Below, one piece after another: positions 53,174-64,000 of a stretch of 64,000 nucleotides of DNA (position 1 is its first letter; every line of letters starts with the position of its first letter). The notes under the pieces are model-generated. The model was given only the letters and a program-made list of their open reading frames with translations. It did no database searches and was not told the DNA's origin. The position numbers and the translations under genes are program-made. Where the stretch lies: positions 1 to 64,000 of IMG/VR virus record IMGVR_UViG_3300034108_000145; one strand, 5' to 3'. This stretch comes from a virus.

Positions 53174-54520
53174 TTATACAGTCTCTAGAGATACTGCATT
53201 ACCAGCCGCACTTGCACTAGCTGTAATGAAGTTAGTGATTGTAGTTGTTGCAGTACCAGCAGGTACGTGAACTACGATCAAATACTGATCATTATCAAAA
53301 GTACTAGTAGGGTTGTTAAAACGTGGAACGTTGTGTAAGATCAATACTTGATCATACAAACCGTTACGGTTAACAGTTGCCAAAGCTGGATCAGCTTCGA
53401 TCTCACGCATACGTAAATGCTCTACACGAGAACTATCAGGATATGCGTTTTGTAAGTAACGACCATCTAAGATCAACTCACGAAGTACAGTTTCACCTGA
53501 ACCTGAAGCTTGCTTAGGAGCTTGTGTTTCTGATACAGAAATACACTCTACTTTACAAGGCTCACCAGACTCGTCTACTACAGAAGCGTAGATAAACAAA
53601 GGCTCTAAATCATACTTGTCAGTAGGAGTGAAAGTACAGTTACCAAACTTAGTGTCTACATAAGCAGCAACGATGTCTAAATGAGAGTTTACAGATCCTA
53701 AGCTAGAAGTAGCAGGAGTGTAACCAGCAGTAGTTTGTGCACTAAAGATAGCTGCGTTACCATTAGTTGAGCTTACTGCATTTTGAGTAAGGGTAATTGT
53801 TGTATTACCAGAGCTAGCTGAATCAGCAGCACCAACTAATAAAACTAAGCTGTTAGGAGCTAAAGAAGCATGAACTACTTTTTCACCTACTTGGAACAAC
53901 GCTGCATCAGCATTTGCTACAGCAATAGTTGCTAAACCTACAGTAGGGTCAATAGCTACAGAAGCTGTAGTTTCTAACCATACTTTAGCTTGTACGAAAT
54001 CTTTTAACAAAGGAGCTTCGTTGATCTGATCAGCCCATTTCAAAAGAGCCACAGTGTGGTCAATTGCAGCTTTGTTTGCATCACAGCATCCTGTGTAAGC
54101 ATCCAATGTTTTGTACAATTGGTGGTTCAAGAAACGGAGAGCAGGAGAACCTTTAACGTCAAGACGTAGACGGATAGTGCTGTCACAAGCAAGACCTGCA
54201 CAAGCATTAGCTTCTACTTTAACGATTTGATTCTTAGCAGCATCAGAAGTTACTTTAATAACACGGCTGATGTACTTAGGGTTAATTACTTTAGACTTAA
54301 CAGACTCTTTGTAACCACCGTGAACAGGGCCAATTTTGTCAGTAGCAAAGTAACTACCTTGAGCCATAATAAATGGAGCGGCTTGAGCAGAAACTACTTG
54401 GAAAGTCTTGGCATCAAAGAAACCAATTTGACCAGCAGTTAAAGCATCAGTACCACCAGAGCTAGCAAGCGTAGTGCTAGCAGGCAAGAATGACTTGCGG
54501 AATGCATTAGGAAAATACAT
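53174..54520 (-). CDS. Abundant-looking structural protein of unknown family, 448 aa
   Basis: The protein begins MYFPNAFRKSFLPASTTLAS. Residues 1-120 include an N-terminal attachment-like piece and a beta domain (RVIKVTSDAAKNQIVKVEAN, then STIRLRLDVKGSPALRFLNH). A Val/Thr/Ala-rich domain (about 185-265) follows, and then a C-terminal region (ELILDGRYLQNAYPDSSRVE, then EIEADPALATVNRNG). Strong expression is suggested by a leader nearly identical to that of the capsid gene and by the strong terminator. It resembles tail tube or sheath-like proteins only loosely, and these would be odd in a short-tailed phage. A ring, tail-hub or capsid-decoration protein is equally possible. Confidence 0.6.
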   Translation of the reverse strand: MYFPNAFRKSFLPASTTLASSGGTDALTAGQIGFFDAKTFQVVSAQAAPFIMAQGSYFATDKIGPVHGGYKESVKSKVINPKYISRVIKVTSDAAKNQIVKVEANACAGLACDSTIRLRLDVKGSPALRFLNHQLYKTLDAYTGCCDANKAAIDHTVALLKWADQINEAPLLKDFVQAKVWLETTASVAIDPTVGLATIAVANADAALFQVGEKVVHASLAPNSLVLLVGAADSASSGNTTITLTQNAVSSTNGNAAIFSAQTTAGYTPATSSLGSVNSHLDIVAAYVDTKFGNCTFTPTDKYDLEPLFIYASVVDESGEPCKVECISVSETQAPKQASGSGETVLRELILDGRYLQNAYPDSSRVEHLRMREIEADPALATVNRNGLYDQVLILHNVPRFNNPTSTFDNDQYLIVVHVPAGTATTTITNFITASASAAGNAVSLETV

Positions 54521-54561: not shown

Positions 54562-54975
54562 TTAACTTAAGAACATTAACTTATACTTGGTTGCAGAAAT
54601 CAAACTCTTCACCTCATCTAGTTGGTTTGTTACTTCTGAAAAGGTCATAATCTTTTGTAACTGCACCACTTCGTTATATAAGTCTTTCATGTGAGATATT
54701 GCTTCCTGTACAGACCCGCATTTATATGCAGGCACTACTGGAAAATCTAGAAGCTTCTCACGAGCTCCTTGATACTGTTCAGCTACAGCATCTACTAAAT
54801 CAGGCATTGCCTCATAAAACTCATTAAGAGCTTTGTGTGCTGAGTAAGAACCAGGTCCAGTTATTTTAAGATGCAACTGGTGCATACTTGTTGTAAGAGC
54901 TTGAGCGTGAGCCAACATTGCTGCTGTCTCTGTACAAGGTCCCATCGGTCCAGGTCTTTGTAATTTCTGTATCAT
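54562..54975 (-). CDS. Dps/ferritin-like small protein (DUF5856-type), 137 aa
   Basis: The sequence MHQLHLKITGPGSYSAHKAL and then FYEAMPDLVDAVAEQYQG has the pattern of a Dps-like four-helix bundle. His35, His47, Asp62 and Glu66 are spaced 12, 15 and 4 residues apart, exactly as in the Dps ferroxidase ligands His31, His43, Asp58 and Glu62. The N-terminal 20 residues (RPGPMGPCTETA) are unlike Dps, and at 137 residues it is shorter than cellular Dps. The fold also fits phage DUF5856. It is embedded between a ring protein gene (TAATG overlap at 54975) and an abundant structural gene, so it may be a virion part. Iron or DNA binding is inferred from the ligands. Confidence 0.72.
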   Translation of the reverse strand: MIQKLQRPGPMGPCTETAAMLAHAQALTTSMHQLHLKITGPGSYSAHKALNEFYEAMPDLVDAVAEQYQGAREKLLDFPVVPAYKCGSVQEAISHMKDLYNEVVQLQKIMTFSEVTNQLDEVKSLISATKYKLMFLS

Positions 54976-55676
54976 TAACTATTTCTTTGAGCGTTTTGTA
55001 CTTCTCTTTGATACTGATTCATAGACTCTATATCACCGGCTAAAATAGCTGCAGCTTCATCTGCTAAAATCTCACATATGTCTTCTTTAAGTTCACATGT
55101 TTGATCTGCTCTAAATGTAGCTCCTGTAGATATATTTGTACAACCTATAAACTGAACATCTCTTGGAAGTCTATAATATGTAAGCTTAATATCTTGAATA
55201 TCAAACTGATTGTTTGTATACAGCTTTAGTTTATCTGCAGCTATTGTACAAAAGGTTTCTGACCAGTCAAAGCTTGGAGACTTAAAGTTGTCAGCCAAAA
55301 GGATGTCAACGTTAGCTTCTTCAGCTTGATATATAGAAAGAGCTCTTTTAGGACAACAATCAGTTTTTGCGTTAGCACTAACTCTTACAAAGTGTAAAAA
55401 GTTTGCAGGAATGTTAGCTGACTCAATATACTTATCTTTTACTGTCCCCGCTAAAGGAACTTCTGTTAAAAGAACTTGTACATCATCAACAATTGTAACA
55501 CTCTGTTCTGCAGCCTCTTTTGACGGATTAAGAGCATGGAGACGTCTACGTACCCATTCTAACTGAGCTTTATTAAAAGCTTCTTGGATCATCCAACATT
55601 CAATGTTGTCATAATCAAAGCTAGCTAGTTTATTAAGCCTTTGTTTTATCTTAATTTGTAAGAGATTGTTATTCAT
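54975..55676 (-). CDS. Head-tail connector / ring protein, P22 gp4-like, 233 aa
   Basis: A helical N-terminus (IKIKQRLNKLASFDYDNIEC, then IQEAFNKAQLEWVRRRLHAL) precedes a beta-rich middle. A later stretch (SFDWSETFCTIAADKLKLYT, then IQDIKLTYYRLPRDVQFIG) is typical of connector proteins of the P22 gp4 family. The C-terminal helix (CEILADEAAAILAGDIESMN) closes the pattern. In crAss-like virions this type of protein is the first ring below the portal. It lies between a head protein gene and the Dps-like gene. Several Cys (CCPKR) resemble those in the ring proteins encoded 30 kb away. Confidence 0.74.
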   Translation of the reverse strand: MNNNLLQIKIKQRLNKLASFDYDNIECWMIQEAFNKAQLEWVRRRLHALNPSKEAAEQSVTIVDDVQVLLTEVPLAGTVKDKYIESANIPANFLHFVRVSANAKTDCCPKRALSIYQAEEANVDILLADNFKSPSFDWSETFCTIAADKLKLYTNNQFDIQDIKLTYYRLPRDVQFIGCTNISTGATFRADQTCELKEDICEILADEAAAILAGDIESMNQYQREVQNAQRNS

Positions 55677-55684
55677 ATACTATT

Positions 55685-56701
55685 TTACTGCATCCAGTAC
55701 TTTTCAACTTTTTTAGTTAAGTCTATTAAAATCTCCTCGTTCAAAGGATTTTTTAAATATTCTACTACATCTGAAGGAGTTCTACCTAACATAGTAGTTG
55801 TTTGCATATGATAGATAAAGCCGTCTGATTTTGGAGCAATGAACTTAAAGTAGTTACTATCTTTTACAATAGATCTAATCTTTAATGTTTCCATATCTAG
55901 ATTAGCTGCATCTAAAAATCTCTGAGCGGTTTTACGCTTATCTTTTTCTACCAAGTCTCCGTTAATGTATTTATCCATGTTGTCATAGATAACGTCATTA
56001 GGTGTAGACTTTTTATATTGAGCACTATTTGCATCTAAAACTTTAGCTACATATAAGAGCTTGTTTTGGTTTTTATCAAATAGTTTCTGAAGTTCTGCAA
56101 GAGCTTTGTTACGAAGCTTCTTAACTTCAGTTTGTATAGAAGCAGTTTCTTCTAGCTTATCTAAATAAAACTTAGGAGGTACTGGCATTCTACGAGCGTC
56201 ATCAAGACTCTTTGCAACAATACTAAAACCACCTGCATCTATAGCGTATAATCTGATTAAATCATATGGATCTTTATCAGGTTCTAAGTACAAAGGTTCA
56301 TTACCGCATCTAATCTTAATCTTATCCCAGAAGTCGTTATTATCTGGTTTAAGAAGTTTAACCTTATTCCAAAACTGATCATCTGTTGGATCAATCACAT
56401 TGGAAGCTAATTCTTTTTCTAGTTGAGCTACTACAGCACGGATTTGTTTAATCTTAGCTTCTTGCTCTTCTAAAGGAAGATCTTTAATGTCTGGAGAAAA
56501 CTCATTTAGACCAGTTAAGTATCTTTTGATACCGTTGATTTCTAAACAAGCAATTGGTTCCTCGTGGAACGCTCCATCAAAAAGACTTAATCCGTATTTC
56601 TGTAATCCCATGTTATCCACTAAAGGATCAAAGAATGGACGGATTGCAATGCTTGAACGTTTGTTCTGTGGATACTTCTCCACAATAGTTACACTACTCA
56701 T
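55685..56701 (-). CDS. Head-associated protein of unknown function, 338 aa
   Basis: The protein begins MSSVTIVEKYPQNKRSSIAI. The N-terminal third is mixed alpha/beta, followed by long charged helices (EAKIKQIRAVVAQLEKELAS). Two short near-repeats, DDQFWNKVKLLKPDNN and NDFWDKIKIRC, lie near residues 106-132. A second helical region (EVKKLRNKALAELQKLFDKN) and a compact C-terminal domain (SDGFIYHMQTTTMLGRTPSD) complete it. It directly follows the capsid gene and its structured RNA element and precedes the ring protein gene, so a head or head-completion role is likely. I do not recognise the family. Confidence 0.66.
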   Translation of the reverse strand: MSSVTIVEKYPQNKRSSIAIRPFFDPLVDNMGLQKYGLSLFDGAFHEEPIACLEINGIKRYLTGLNEFSPDIKDLPLEEQEAKIKQIRAVVAQLEKELASNVIDPTDDQFWNKVKLLKPDNNDFWDKIKIRCGNEPLYLEPDKDPYDLIRLYAIDAGGFSIVAKSLDDARRMPVPPKFYLDKLEETASIQTEVKKLRNKALAELQKLFDKNQNKLLYVAKVLDANSAQYKKSTPNDVIYDNMDKYINGDLVEKDKRKTAQRFLDAANLDMETLKIRSIVKDSNYFKFIAPKSDGFIYHMQTTTMLGRTPSDVVEYLKNPLNEEILIDLTKKVEKYWMQ

Positions 56702-56898: not shown

Positions 56899-58518
56899 TT
56901 AGAATGATCCACCAGTTACAGGGTTTCTCATAACAATCTTCAATACTTTCGTAGGATCTTTAACCCAGATAGCAGGCATTGTTTGAGTCATGAACACACG
57001 GTAGCCGTTGAAGTTTCCAGAAGACTGGAAGCCTTGAGTACGACCCATGTAATCCATAGTACCGTTTTGATAGAACCACTTCAATTGATTATCCCAAGAT
57101 AACTTCAACAAGAAGATGTTGTCGTTAGTGTTCTCAGTGATATCAAAGATGATGAAATTATAAGAACTTAATGGGAAACCATCAATGATTGGGTTCTCAA
57201 TGTCATTAGTGTGGATGTTATCAAACGCTGGGTTCAATACAAACTTAACGTTAGCCAAGAACGGAATAACGTATTGAGTGTAAGCAAAACCAAAGTTTAG
57301 ATCCATACCTTTGCCAGTGATAGCACCAACTTCAGAAGCATTGATTACTAAGCCAGAGTTAATAGCCTCACGCTTAATAGCTTCATTAACAAGTTTCATA
57401 CCACCAAGACCTGTTTGTACAACTAAGCTACGCTTAGGATCTGGTCCTTGGAACTCAACTTTACCATTGAAGAAGTTGAAGATCTCAGACTTGAATAGAT
57501 CCAAGTTGAAACTACCTTTGTTGTAAATACGCTTGTAAGAGTTATCTAACTGCTTCCAAAGACCAACTGATAGACGAATATCATCTGGACCATCTTGCTT
57601 AACTTTACCACCTTGACCCCACATAAGGTAAGTTTCGATGTCGTTAGCAATCTTACTCAAATGAGCTGCTTCCATAGTAGTTAAGAATGTACGAGTTAAC
57701 TGACCAGATTGGTAAGCTTTCTTTACATAATCTTTACCCATTTTAGAAGCCATGTCTTCTAAGTTAGAAATAGAAGGATCTACGCTCTTGTCAAAGTTTC
57801 TCCAAAGCTCAACTACAGGAACTGTACCATCAGCTTTTAAACCACCTTTCATCATTAAGTCAGCACGAGAGCTAACAGAATAGTGAACGTGAGCTTCAGC
57901 ACCACCTACATAGTTGTAGAATTCACGGAAACCTGCACTGATGTTACCGATATCAGAGAAACGCTCACCGTATTCACCACGAGCAGAACCTTTACGGAAC
58001 ACCTTAGTACCAACTTTTAAGTACTTGTTATCCAAGAACTTAGCGTTGTCATTGTTTACAAGCTGAACTGTGTAAATGAAACCGTCACCAGCTGGGATGA
58101 TATCGTCAGCAGTGATGTACATTTCAACACCGTTGTATTTGTCATAAGTGATGATATCACCATGTCCAAAAGAACGCTTGTTTACTTTAATTTTGAAACT
58201 CTGTCCGTCAATGCCTTTTGTAGCATTAGCGGATTCTACATCTTCTGTAATGTAAGGTAGATCCTGAGTTACTGGGATCTGCCATTTGTACTCACCACGT
58301 GCGTTATCTACAGAGATAACGTTCTTTCCTCCAAAGCTAGACATCTGGTACAAAGGCATTTCTACCTTTTGAGCCATTGCCCATAAATCTACAGGACCTA
58401 AATCAGTAGGTTCTGCACTCTTAAGAAGGTTTGAAAGGTGGTAGGAGTCTACGTGTGAGCTAGTTGCATAGCTGGTATCTCGTAGAAATATACCATTGTT
58501 CAAAACTGGAGTTGCCAT
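56899..58518 (-). CDS. Major capsid protein, HK97-fold, crAss-like, 539 aa
   Basis: The protein (MATPVLNNGIFLRDTSYATS, then SSFGGKNVISVDNARGEYKW) resembles crAss-like major capsid proteins, which are usually about 490-500 residues. It has the expected mix: an N-terminal arm, a long spine-like helical stretch (LTRFTLTTMEAAHLSKIAND-like region near 280-300) and a beta-rich C-terminal half (PIIDGFPLSSYNFIIFDITE). Position also fits: it follows the scaffold-like gene, which follows the portal. It should build the icosahedral shell as pentamers and hexamers. The leader element matches that of the 448-residue gene, and a structured RNA follows the stop codon. Confidence 0.85.
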   Translation of the reverse strand: MATPVLNNGIFLRDTSYATSSHVDSYHLSNLLKSAEPTDLGPVDLWAMAQKVEMPLYQMSSFGGKNVISVDNARGEYKWQIPVTQDLPYITEDVESANATKGIDGQSFKIKVNKRSFGHGDIITYDKYNGVEMYITADDIIPAGDGFIYTVQLVNNDNAKFLDNKYLKVGTKVFRKGSARGEYGERFSDIGNISAGFREFYNYVGGAEAHVHYSVSSRADLMMKGGLKADGTVPVVELWRNFDKSVDPSISNLEDMASKMGKDYVKKAYQSGQLTRTFLTTMEAAHLSKIANDIETYLMWGQGGKVKQDGPDDIRLSVGLWKQLDNSYKRIYNKGSFNLDLFKSEIFNFFNGKVEFQGPDPKRSLVVQTGLGGMKLVNEAIKREAINSGLVINASEVGAITGKGMDLNFGFAYTQYVIPFLANVKFVLNPAFDNIHTNDIENPIIDGFPLSSYNFIIFDITENTNDNIFLLKLSWDNQLKWFYQNGTMDYMGRTQGFQSSGNFNGYRVFMTQTMPAIWVKDPTKVLKIVMRNPVTGGSF

Positions 58519-59932: not shown

Positions 59933-62686
59933 TTATTTAGCTTTCTTCCCAGAATCGTACTTATTCTTATTTTCTTTAGCAATCTGAAGTTGTTTATCAG
60001 CTATTTGTTTCTGTGTTTGTAACTTTTCACGATCTATGCTAAGCTTCTGATCTGTCTGTAGTTTTTTATTCATCTCAGACTCACGCTTAAGATTCATCTG
60101 ATCTTGATAGCGTTGCTCACCACGAATCTTTTCTAAAGCATCTTGATAATCAGACTGTTCGTTCTGGTTAATATCTACACCTGCACCATATCCAGCTGCT
60201 CTAATCTCAGCTACAGTAAGCTGAGTTTGTCTATCCAGATCAGCTTGTTCGGTTCTAAACTGTAGATCCATTTGTTTCTGACGTTCTTGAGACTCAAGCA
60301 TTTCTTGTTGCATCTGCTGCTGTTGTTGCATTTCAGCTTCTTTCTGAGCTTGTACTTTTTCTTCAGCATTCTTAAGAACACCTGTAAGTTCAGCAATAGA
60401 CTCAGACTTGATAACATTACCAAGATCGTAGATAGATGCACCAGTAGTATTGTTATTGATAGCCAATTGTTTAAGTTGCTCCATTACAGAACGAGCATTA
60501 GTCTTTGTTGTACAGAAGATATTTAAATCTCTCATAAGAAGCTCTGTACCGTTCATTTCAAAATGAACTTTTTCATCCTTAGATGTAATATATTGAAGAC
60601 GTACACTAGGCTTTTTAGAATGATAATACTGAGCAAGATCTGTTCTAAGCTGATGTACGCGAGGCATTAAGTTATCTGAGTGCTGAATAAAATACTGCTC
60701 TGTCTGTGCATAAGAAGCGTTCATAGCTTGTTCTACACCAGTGGCAGTTTGTTGTTGAGCAATAGCCTGACCCATACGTTGTGGGTTAAGACCAATAGTT
60801 TCAAAAGCTTGGTTCTTAAAGTGACCTGCTAATTGAATACGAGATAACAAACGGTTAGTTTGTTCTAGGTTTAACACCTGATAATGTTGGAAGTTAAGAG
60901 CATTCTCAGTGTTAGTTATGCTTGTATCAAGCGGTAACATCTGGAAGTTCTTCATAGCCACATAGGCTTTAGCCAGATTATTTTTACCCCAGTCTTCTCC
61001 CATAGAGTGACGTGGCAAAGAGTTCTGGTCTAGCATGATCACCGTGCCGAGCTCATCTACTAAAATGTCTGCGATCTGGTTATTCACAATATTATAGCCT
61101 ATTTGGTAGGGCTTCATTAGATCAACCAATGAAGTACTCCTAGTATTTCTATCTCCAAATACACAACCTTCCACTGGAAGTTTACACCCATAAAGTGTAG
61201 CATCCCCTTTGAATTGGAAAGGAAGACGTCCTGGTTTACCACCATTAAGTCCTAAGTAGATTGGGTTAATGCCACCTGGGTTATTATGTCCCCAGAATGC
61301 CGGACGGTTAGGTCCAATCTTAATACCACCCCAAGTCTCGTTAATCCAAATCCAATCTATATGTTCACCAAAGATTAAGTTATCTTTAGTCTTTTGTTTA
61401 TACAATGCAGTGTTATACTGAGGCTTATCAGACACTTTAAATGATTCAGTTACAATGTCTTGTAAGATTTCTCCTTCTTCTGTAATCTTAGTTAAGTGCC
61501 CCACTTTACGTTGAGACTTCCAATAAATCTGAGATACACGTAGTAAGTGACTCTTACCAAAGTCAATAGTATCTTCTGAATCTGATAAGATCCATTCTAC
61601 AATGTCACCTGTACCAAACTTTGTATCGTATACAGATGTAAATTGTCTGTATGCAAGAGATGGCATCTGAGTATTCCACTCATGACTTCTTGTAGGATCA
61701 TAGTATGTACCGTCATTTTGGTATCCTTGTACAGCATAGCCGGCAGATCTTACAGGATAGATAGCTTCTAAAGCTTCCATTTGTTCCTGGTTCATCATCC
61801 AACCAAACTTATCAATAACGTCTGATACAGACATCATATCCATTTTACCTACCCAGTTACCCTGAGAGATATAACGTACATCTGGAGATTTATGGTAGAA
61901 TGTAAGAAGTGGATTCCACAACTCTAACTCATAGTCATCTTCCATCATGTTAAAATGCCAGAACTCACGATCTGTAATTAACATATCGCGAAATGCACGT
62001 TCTTCTAACTCTTGAAGTTTAAACCTTTCTTCATCTACTGACATCTGGTGGGTAGCCCACTCTTCAATCATAGATCTGTAATCTTTACGGAAAAAGCTTT
62101 CAATCTCAGGAAGTTTCTTTAAGTTATCTGGAGAAGTCTGCTCTTGAACTTGTTTCTGAACTTCTTCATCTTCAAGATCTAAGCCCTGATTCATAATCTC
62201 CATCATCATCTTTTGCTGAGCATCCTGTAAAAGGACATCCTCAAGCATTTTACGCTTCTCTTCTAAAAGCTCATTGTAAGAAATATCATCTACAGCCTTA
62301 AACATAATACGTGAGCTTCTTTTAGAAAACTCATTACATAATACGTTTACAACGTTAGGGATAATAGGATAGAACTTAAGCTCTAATGCAGATTGATCTT
62401 CTTTAGTTAACTGATCAATAAGATCAGCCATTTCGTTATCTTCTTCAACGATATAATCTGTTTTGTCAATAATACCCTTAGCAAGCTTGTAGTTCTTCAT
62501 AAGCCTACGAGCATTGCGTCTAAGCTGCTTCATACCTTGCCACTCAAGCCAGTCTAGATTCCAGGCTCTCCACTCATCATCTTTCTCTTTCTCGGGTAAA
62601 AATTGAATAGGCTGGGTAAGAGTACCCATCTTGTTATACTCCGCCTTTTTCCCGGCCTTCAGATCCATTGCTGAATATATCTGCAT
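59933..62686 (-). CDS. Portal protein, crAss-like, 917 aa
   Basis: The protein starts MQIYSAMDLKAGKKAEYNKM. The N-terminal half is alpha-helical with a conserved-looking WRAWNLDWLEWQGMKQLRRN. A wing/stem-like middle (FWHFNMMEDDYELELWNPLL, then DIVEWILSDSED) follows, and a long helical C-terminal part from about residue 590. The last 150 residues are a Gln/Lys/Glu-rich coiled coil (EAEMQQQQQMQQEMLESQER), likely the barrel extending into the capsid. A length near 900 is at the large end for crAss-like portals. The portal forms the dodecameric DNA gate and binds the terminase. It lies two short steps after TerL, in the usual order. Confidence 0.85.
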   Translation of the reverse strand: MQIYSAMDLKAGKKAEYNKMGTLTQPIQFLPEKEKDDEWRAWNLDWLEWQGMKQLRRNARRLMKNYKLAKGIIDKTDYIVEEDNEMADLIDQLTKEDQSALELKFYPIIPNVVNVLCNEFSKRSSRIMFKAVDDISYNELLEEKRKMLEDVLLQDAQQKMMMEIMNQGLDLEDEEVQKQVQEQTSPDNLKKLPEIESFFRKDYRSMIEEWATHQMSVDEERFKLQELEERAFRDMLITDREFWHFNMMEDDYELELWNPLLTFYHKSPDVRYISQGNWVGKMDMMSVSDVIDKFGWMMNQEQMEALEAIYPVRSAGYAVQGYQNDGTYYDPTRSHEWNTQMPSLAYRQFTSVYDTKFGTGDIVEWILSDSEDTIDFGKSHLLRVSQIYWKSQRKVGHLTKITEEGEILQDIVTESFKVSDKPQYNTALYKQKTKDNLIFGEHIDWIWINETWGGIKIGPNRPAFWGHNNPGGINPIYLGLNGGKPGRLPFQFKGDATLYGCKLPVEGCVFGDRNTRSTSLVDLMKPYQIGYNIVNNQIADILVDELGTVIMLDQNSLPRHSMGEDWGKNNLAKAYVAMKNFQMLPLDTSITNTENALNFQHYQVLNLEQTNRLLSRIQLAGHFKNQAFETIGLNPQRMGQAIAQQQTATGVEQAMNASYAQTEQYFIQHSDNLMPRVHQLRTDLAQYYHSKKPSVRLQYITSKDEKVHFEMNGTELLMRDLNIFCTTKTNARSVMEQLKQLAINNNTTGASIYDLGNVIKSESIAELTGVLKNAEEKVQAQKEAEMQQQQQMQQEMLESQERQKQMDLQFRTEQADLDRQTQLTVAEIRAAGYGAGVDINQNEQSDYQDALEKIRGEQRYQDQMNLKRESEMNKKLQTDQKLSIDREKLQTQKQIADKQLQIAKENKNKYDSGKKAK

Positions 62687-62973: not shown

Positions 62974-64000
62974 TTATCTCATATTTTTAAAAGGACTACG
63001 TGGCGGTCTCATATTTGTACCGTCACTACCCCTAGAATTACCCAGATGTCTAAAGGGGCTCCAATTTAATTTACTAAATTTCTGGGAGTTATCCAAGTTT
63101 TCTTTTGTAACTTCTACACGTTTAGAGAAGCCACGGTTAGATTGTTGCACCTTTGCAAAGGCTATAAGAGCACAAAAGGCTACCAATCTATCCACGTTTA
63201 GTCCATCTCTGTAAGCTTGCATCTCTCGTAAAAGCATAATGTCAGGGATTCTTTCAATACCGTATATGGTTTTTACAATATCCCCGTTTTCTTTTGTCTC
63301 ATGATCTAGCTCTTCTTTTGTATACTCAATACCGTAAGATAGGATGTTACCCTTAAAAAGCGTACCTACGTTCTTCCAGCCATATTCTTGGAATACGTTA
63401 CGGTTGGCACCAATGTCTTTTAAGAATAAGATCATGTCTTTAGGTACTAAGTAACGTTGCTTACGTTTAGAAATCATGTATTGTATAAACAAAGCTACGT
63501 TATTCTCCACTATTGTCCAGGCGTTGTACCACTCTATAAGTATTTCTAAACGCTCATGGGTTTTAGTAAGATCGTCAAAACGACCACACCAAGATGCCAC
63601 TATACCATCCCGTTCAATACTACTTTCTACCACTCCTCCACCAGAGTCTTTTATTACTTCTACAGGATTCTTGTATATGTATATAGAACATAGGGATTCC
63701 GATGTAGTAGTTTTACCTTCACCTACTGGATCCACAGAAGCATAGTATGTGCCAAACTGAGGATCTTTACAAGGTCTTTCGTAAATACAGATGACACCTT
63801 CTTTATCTTCTGTCTTTTTAGATATAGGAAACTCCATAATAGGAATCTTCCTAGACGGTTTGTCTATGATTTTACCTTCTGCGTTTCTAGAAAGTTCTAA
63901 GTATTCTACAGGATATTCTTTATCTTGAATACGCTGCATTTGTTTAGCCACAAGATGCGGAGGGAACACACTCACCTTACGTGTAGCAAAAGCCTCTTCT
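62974..64000 (-). CDS. terL: Terminase large subunit, C-terminal (nuclease) part, cut by window edge
   Basis: The frame stays open to the right edge (visible start EEAFATRKVSVFPPHLVAKQ), so the apparent GTG at 63975 is internal and the ATPase domain lies outside the window. The visible 341 residues hold the RNase H-like nuclease domain. The first acidic residue is in YYASVDPVGEGKTTTSES, a second in WTIVENN, and a third in VDRLVAFCALIAFA; the last two are typical of terminase nucleases. The enzyme cuts the DNA concatemer and pumps genomes into the prohead through the portal. The C-terminal tail is Pro/Arg-rich (RPPRSPFKNMR). Confidence 0.88.
   Translation of the reverse strand, partial: EEAFATRKVSVFPPHLVAKQMQRIQDKEYPVEYLELSRNAEGKIIDKPSRKIPIMEFPISKKTEDKEGVICIYERPCKDPQFGTYYASVDPVGEGKTTTSESLCSIYIYKNPVEVIKDSGGGVVESSIERDGIVASWCGRFDDLTKTHERLEILIEWYNAWTIVENNVALFIQYMISKRKQRYLVPKDMILFLKDIGANRNVFQEYGWKNVGTLFKGNILSYGIEYTKEELDHETKENGDIVKTIYGIERIPDIMLLREMQAYRDGLNVDRLVAFCALIAFAKVQQSNRGFSKRVEVTKENLDNSQKFSKLNWSPFRHLGNSRGSDGTNMRPPRSPFKNMR

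Follow-up and report, generated by a model that had tools for sequence, protein, structure and literature searches.

A small gene in the head operon of a crass-like phage from a lake encodes a mini-ferritin of the DUF5856 family that is very probably a ferroxidase-type iron protein. It lies after the ring/adaptor gene and before the following gene for a head protein, at a place that we call the ferritin slot: relatives of the phage carry there either this Dps-like protein or a ferritin without detectable sequence similarity to it. The window analysed here is a stretch of 64,000 nucleotides from a virus contig of 129,765 bases (IMG/VR record IMGVR_UViG_3300034108_000145). Our best reading, to which we give slightly better than even chances, is that a ferroxidase mini-ferritin is made together with the virion and probably loaded into it or onto it.

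Genomic context

The reading frame described in the initial annotation at 54562-54975 is real, but it belongs to the minus strand, where an ATG is followed by 137 codons and a stop; read on the plus strand, the interval has stop codons throughout. The gene has a median dN/dS of 0.12 (56 usable of 78 pairs). Its start overlaps the stop of the upstream ring/adaptor gene by one base (TTAATG), and the two genes are probably translationally coupled. The proposed placement within the head operon held as well, with the portal, the major capsid protein (MCP) and the ring/adaptor gene upstream in a single minus-strand late operon, ordered terminase, portal, 423-aa gene, MCP, 338-aa gene, ring/adaptor, ferritin-like gene and 448-aa gene. 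The features are:

62974..63975, minus strand, terminase large subunit, C-terminal part (phrog_6681, E 3.8e-23)
59933..62686, minus strand, portal (phrog_6547, E 2.1e-89)
56899..58518, minus strand, major capsid protein of crassvirus type (Crass_capsid PF23898, E 2.9e-30)
55685..56701, minus strand, 338-aa head-operon protein, no assigned function
54975..55676, minus strand, ring/adaptor (connector) protein, 233 aa (phrog_29507 virion structural protein, E 1.1e-9)
54562..54975, minus strand, Dps-like mini-ferritin gene (DUF5856 / phrog_858), 137 aa plus stop; matches to PF19174, phrog_858 and H. pylori NAP
53174..54520, minus strand, 448-aa head-operon protein, no assigned function, downstream border of the slot

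On its genes only, the window is of crassvirus type, with a crassvirus MCP and the order TerL-portal-MCP-ring. The ring/adaptor protein is 27% identical to the ring protein of csAssE-Sib, and the closest annotated relative of the MCP (28.7% identity) is that of Leptolyngbya phage Lbo-JY46 (locus L148), a phage of a cyanobacterium with a crass-like gene order. Elsewhere in the source record, outside the slot, there is an HU/IHF-like match (G000:C1:69207-69368, minus strand; PF00216, E 1.3e-5), which gives the phage a candidate for a DNA-bending protein as well. Many relatives, but not the window, carry runs of small Lys/Gly-rich genes between the 338-aa and ring genes (L126:3815-6625; L309:7698-11217; L316:9732-13581; L328:9742-13420). 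One gene type repeated in these runs starts MAKSPAWQRKEGKSPSGGLNAKGRAS; the products of the runs are possibly DNA-condensing virion proteins.

Family membership and fold

The comparison with DUF5856 proposed earlier gave a clear result, the protein being a member of PF19174 (E 1e-17, 65.4 bits against a curated cut-off of 34.6). It also matches phrog_858 over residues 23-136 (E 8.7e-22), and all 13 family members from annotated phages match both profiles. The best sequence match in the PDB is the Dps protein NAP of Helicobacter pylori (E 2.7e-6), and the family profile matches many Dps chains of the PDB, mostly across helices A and B.

The AlphaFold2 model (pLDDT 93, pTM 0.85) was built from an alignment of 39 sequences, namely 38 of 42 representatives plus the window protein, which replaced L001 as first row (L209, L222 and L244 were left out). 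As the initial annotation had supposed, it is a ferritin-like four-helix bundle, with helices at 14-37, 43-72, 89-109 and 113-135 and an N-terminus of low confidence. The expected resemblance to solved Dps structures was also borne out. The top PDB rows of Foldseek are Dps (E 1.6e-3 and probability 1.00 for the best, no row reaching 1e-3), and VIA-align places Dps2 of Mycobacterium smegmatis (MsDps2) at Z 16.1 (rmsd 2.1, 126 residues), the rows listed, down to Z 14.2 at row 50, being ferritin-like proteins. Since helical models that lack a clear match are quoted as reaching a best Z of about 14, only the agreement among rows and the top Z values count, and the result speaks for the families in Foldseek's list, which is what VIA-align re-examines. 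The model supports a place in the ferritin superfamily, with a four-helix fold whose nearest relatives of solved structure are Dps proteins. Among the BFVD matches, three (A0A6J7WIS1, A0A6J7XDU5 and A0A6J7WPK9) are ferritin-like domains inside long 'prohead protease' proteins of uncultured phages, a possible tie to head maturation.

The designation Dps-like is justified for the fold and the ligands, but the protein is not a Dps proper. Dps proteins form dodecameric shells, carry a short extra helix (BC) in the loop that joins helices B and C, and have a Trp adjoining the first ligand His. The window protein shares the sequence match, the four helices and the 12/15/4 ligand spacing with HP-NAP and M. 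smegmatis Dps2, but it is shorter (137 aa) and its modelled B-C loop (73-88) is devoid of a helix, none of four or more residues being found between 72 and 89. The residue after the first ligand His is L36, and this position is Leu in 129 of the 132 aligned rows and Trp in the other 3. PF00210, which we take to be the Pfam family holding Dps, is absent among the Pfam matches of the window protein up to E 1, and the whole source record gave no match to it (positive controls 14/14).

The same family includes rI.-1 of the T4 group (PF19174/phrog_858), which has the H/H/D/E quartet and the C-terminal YxL..L motif of the window protein. The T4-group genes differ in adjoining rI, in lacking the KLxRP tail and, mostly, in a His-His loop shorter by three residues. 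The designation of transcriptional regulator is only a database name and has no support for the window protein. In the form 'starvation-inducible transcriptional regulator' (phrog_858) it has spread over many RefSeq phage records, and the proteins that carry it look like ferroxidase proteins.

The probable ferroxidase site

The four residues H35, H47, D62 and E66 are found where they had been placed, with the 12/15/4 spacing. Their codons, and that of an additional His, are:

54880..54882, minus strand, H32, nearly invariant extra His (131/132 rows)
54871..54873, minus strand, H35, ferroxidase ligand, end of helix A (132/132 rows)
54835..54837, minus strand, H47, ferroxidase ligand, start of helix B (132/132 rows)
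54790..54792, minus strand, D62, ferroxidase ligand, middle of helix B (132/132 rows)
54778..54780, minus strand, E66, ferroxidase ligand, middle of helix B (132/132 rows)

The arrangement goes beyond coincidence, as the quartet is invariant in all 132 rows of the alignment, which comprises 131 distinct sequences and the window row, a duplicate of L001 (228 of the 232 loci had a usable ORF). It is equally invariant in the 28 rows of a more divergent set, in which 15 environmental sequences are combined with those of 13 annotated phages, including T2, Krischvirus, Ackermannviridae, the jumbo phage Munch, P19250A and ctGfd272. Free variation of the ligands among homologues, named in the initial annotation as the observation that would count against such a site, was seen in neither set. 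Most of the annotated phages have three residues fewer between the two His and still keep the quartet; this persistence despite an indel argues for a metal site over shared ancestry alone. Other His, Asp and Glu residues mostly vary freely, with the exceptions of H32 and D120 (129/132), and the further invariant residues are Y54, Q69, G70, N117, Y131, F135 and L136.

H47 is 15 residues away from D62 and 19 from E66 along one modelled helix (43-72), too far for all of them to meet in a site within one chain. The monomer model thus leads us to predict an inter-chain ferroxidase site of the Dps type, in which the site lies at a two-fold dimer interface.

The ferritin slot and its exchange

Among loci found through the Dps-like gene, the ring gene precedes it and the 448-aa gene follows it wherever both neighbours are present, with extra genes sometimes inserted between the slot neighbours. 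Two further samples of 80 loci each, anchored on the MCP and on the ring gene, were not selected on the Dps-like gene; they overlap in contigs, and many of the loci L068-L123 are the same contigs as L001-L056. The slot was informative in 45 of the MCP-anchored loci, with 42 Dps-like genes, 2 ferritins and 1 other gene (30 loci had no ring match in the available DNA, including L301, which extends 7 kb past the MCP, and 5 ended within 450 bp). In the ring-anchored sample, 76 loci were informative and contained 64 Dps-like genes, 8 ferritins and 4 empty slots (L405, L410, L444 and L455). Neither the family alignment nor PF00210 found a match in the incomplete records of these four loci (14-48 kb), and for this reason the slot gene looks dispensable.

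More distant relatives also differ at this place. The annotations of Lbo-JY46, phi17:2 and csAssE-Sib list no small gene there, and eight Lbo-JY46-like loci gave no credible family match at the slot; a match in L333 (E 6e-4, upstream of the terminase) was rejected as spurious, being a 104-aa ORF without the His ligands. The locus at first scored as 'other', L304, has a gene of the LCIB type, carbonic-anhydrase-like, in or near the slot (L304:12077-12892; PF18599, E 1.3e-25), and its contig ends there. It was discarded as a case of slot loss, since L131 has both a gene with a similar N-terminal sequence and, after it, the Dps-like gene. Similar LCIB-like N-termini were recognised by eye at L131:7057-7998, L125:6072-7046 and L272:13000-13971.

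The alternative occupant is a genuine ferritin. The slot protein of L295 matches PF00210 (E 1e-19, 71.3 bits against a cut-off of 24.5) and bacterial non-heme ferritin in the PDB (E 4.8e-18). It shares with the window protein the slot, the tail types and the ferritin superfamily, but belongs to another branch (PF00210), is longer (about 200 aa) and has no sequence similarity to it. The positions QE, EE..H, HE and EQ.EE are invariant in 15 slot ferritins, and we take these carboxylate and His positions to be the ferritin ferroxidase site. A scan with the L295 ferritin recovered 32 loci, many of them with a crass-type ring gene directly upstream.

Both genes occur in tandem on one contig (L126, the same as L348; L126:7331-8384), each with its own RP-type tail, possibly a swap intermediate. 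On a tree of the ring protein (92 rows, of which 75 Dps-like, 16 ferritin and 1 both, dereplicated from 215 loci) the slot state needs 12-13 changes, and at least 11 are required by the branches with good support. Because recombination of the ring gene itself is possible, these changes are to be read as exchanges relative to the adjacent gene. The repeated replacement by an unrelated ferritin that has its own complete ferroxidase site suggests that iron oxidation and storage are what is kept. A different kind of divergence is seen at L145:8001-8426, where the portal and MCP are 86% and 97% identical to those of the window and the Dps-like protein is only 48% identical, perhaps by allele exchange.

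These results bear on two readings offered in the initial annotation. One was a repurposed structural bundle, in which a component of the neck or head would have kept the fold and lost the chemistry. The head-operon position and the one-base overlap with the ring gene would suit such a component, but the ligands are invariant across deep divergence, at least 11 exchanges with an unrelated ferritin are hardly compatible with specific structural contacts, and the slot is empty in 4 of 76 cases. Ligand invariance and the repeated swaps speak against this reading, which we consider highly improbable. The other was a DNA-binding role in the manner of Dps, in which the protein would condense or shield the phage DNA and ferroxidase activity would be secondary. 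The fold and family resemblance to Dps, as well as the runs of small Lys-rich proteins in the MCP-ring interval of some relatives, go in this direction, and some Dps proteins bind DNA by way of basic tails. The window protein is acidic (K+R 12 against D+E 14, pI 6.2), however, which is not what is expected of a strong DNA binder, the only basic residues of its tail are K4 and R7, and ferritins, which to our knowledge do not condense DNA, replace it in the slot. A DNA-binding function of this kind thus seems quite improbable.

A search for the source of the gene among bacteria found none: only 2 relatives were present among 124 pattern matches in the scan of genome contigs, and both are on MAG contigs with the same phage-type ring genes. 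Plasmids gave no match with an approximate fragment as query.

The N-terminal tail

The first residues of the protein precede the helical bundle:

54937..54975, minus strand, N-terminal tail, residues 1-13 (MIQKLQRPGPMGP); low model confidence, proposed docking tag

The tail types M.KI.RP[ST]I[FL]S and ME...LKR are common to the Dps-like and the ferritin proteins of the slot. A tail motif was found within the first 22 residues of 83 of the 93 slot proteins versus 9 of 404 neighbouring head proteins (p338 4/82, p448 0/83, p182 4/67, MCP 0/49, p423 0/75, p205 1/48), counts for which the motif was fixed after inspection of the sequences and start codons were chosen by rule. Of the family members located elsewhere, 10 of the 65 Dps-like proteins have it, and 1 of the 6 ferritins. 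Some of the 10 slot proteins without the motif (L264, L295, L108 and L324) have a near miss, KTIxR. With a stricter form of the motif, the ferritin-like gene was the only one recovered among the window ORFs of at least 60 residues.

From the sequence pattern, we propose that the tail is a docking or packaging tag. A plainer alternative is a recombination junction that keeps the 5' end of the gene, for which the tail needs no function.

Evidence from the virions of other phages

Homologues of the window protein have been detected in virions of two Ackermannviridae. For phage LIMEstone1, the published study lists ORF078 among the virion proteins detected by mass spectrometry as an unknown structural protein of 13.15 kDa (3 unique peptides, 28.21% coverage), and gives all 12 unknown structural proteins of this phage structural counterparts in ViI (PMC3296691). 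The GenBank record describes ORF078 as a confirmed structural protein, and its sequence aligns with the DUF5856 family. For Sajous1, the study reports 10 spectra of gp217 from CsCl-purified virions, compared with 924 for the MCP, and a Phyre2 assignment of gp217 as ferritin; its authors note that low counts may be contamination (PMC10892097). Sajous1 gp217 (117 aa) is 91% identical to ORF078 and 36% identical to the window protein (109 columns). These genes have a tail-completion gene or further structural genes of unassigned role nearby. They adjoin other virion proteins as in the window, but not a crass-type ring gene, and the proteins found in virions are devoid of the tail. Virion proteomics for phages of the clade of the window was not found in our searches, and the phiD3 proteomics names only 10 proteins.

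The association with the virion that the initial annotation had raised is thus strengthened by the homologues detected by mass spectrometry and by the slot swap, while the location in the window phage itself is extrapolated from them. We consider it somewhat probable that the window protein is in or on the virion.

The main rival is a purely intracellular role, that is, a cytoplasmic late gene (moron) that is in the head operon only for strong late expression and whose product, unpackaged, detoxifies iron and peroxide in the dying host. Several homologues lie outside head operons, the T4-like ones adjoining rI and that of P19250A a holin. In the gut crassvirus cr106_1 a DpsA-like protein (hhalign probability 88, E 3e-6; the same quartet by eye) is encoded among tRNA genes, in a non-structural region and outside the structural block, unlike the window gene in its head operon. 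The Dps proteins encoded by phages of the 'Gratiaviridae' are treated in one study as host-tolerance enzymes, and gut phage Dps enzymes are there proposed to aid anaerobic hosts (PMC8008677). Non-structural genes can also be found in related head operons, such as the cupin and endolysin genes of phi17:2. This role is nevertheless at odds with the detection of homologues in the virions of two Ackermannviridae and with the presence of two unrelated ferritins in the slot with common tails that are mostly absent in relatives elsewhere, and we regard it as unlikely, if seriously to be reckoned with.

Iron delivery has been considered too, with the cage of the virion carrying ferric iron for uptake at the host surface (the 'Ferrojan horse') or to supply the cell. 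A 'ferrojan horse' role is suggested for Kuttervirus gp214-217 in the Sajous1 study, which also judges infection of tonB, feoB and double mutants by five Vi01-like phages similar to that of the wild type (PMC10892097). The position of the gene after the ring/adaptor gene in a head-neck operon would fit a virion cargo of this sort, but the results with the mutants go against it and a location inside the capsid would hide the iron from receptors. Delivery of iron is, in our opinion, very unlikely.

Proposed function

A virion-borne cage is the leading reading because of the position of the gene, its late coupling, the tails and the mass spectrometry of the homologues. The protein would be made late, together with the head and neck proteins. 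Its subunits would pair, and a Dps-type site would arise where H35 and H47 from one chain meet D62 and E66 from the other. The assembled cage would oxidise and store Fe(II), probably at the expense of peroxide. The conserved short tail would most likely attach the cage to the particle, either in the capsid interior or at the neck, and the cage may protect the DNA against cleavage by iron and peroxide while it is packaged, stored or brought into the cell. The oligomer, the oxidation of iron, the docking, the presence in the virion of the window phage and the protective purpose are all inferred; given the rest, a protective purpose has about even chances against iron delivery or a role in the host cell.

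Extended to the group, the proposal is that freshwater crass-like phages have a dedicated ferritin slot that provides an iron-oxidising virion cage, with an exchangeable body and a tail that addresses it to the particle. We put this forward tentatively, as possible but somewhat short of probable.

Significance

The literature already contains Dps proteins of phages and a ferritin-like protein located in virions. In a literature search that covered few subscription papers and no preprints, we found no mention of DUF5856, no paper on Crassvirales with a ferritin or on crAss-like phages with Dps and IHF, and neither the crass-like slot nor its ferritin exchange and common tails.

When phages carry Dps-like genes, these are usually classed as regulators or as genes that protect the host, and here more than 100 loci place such a gene beside the connector gene. 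The slot also represents a natural swap, in which Dps-like and FtnA-like ferritins with no detectable common sequence are found at the same address with similar tails. If the tail is a packaging tag, it could serve for cargo loading. DUF5856, present in T4-like, Ackermannviridae, jumbo and crass-like phages, gains a testable mechanism and, if the proposal is true, the phage would in effect carry a sink of its own for iron and peroxide in the particle. The debate about functional iron in phage particles (the 'Ferrojan horse') becomes directly testable here by virion proteomics and metal analysis.
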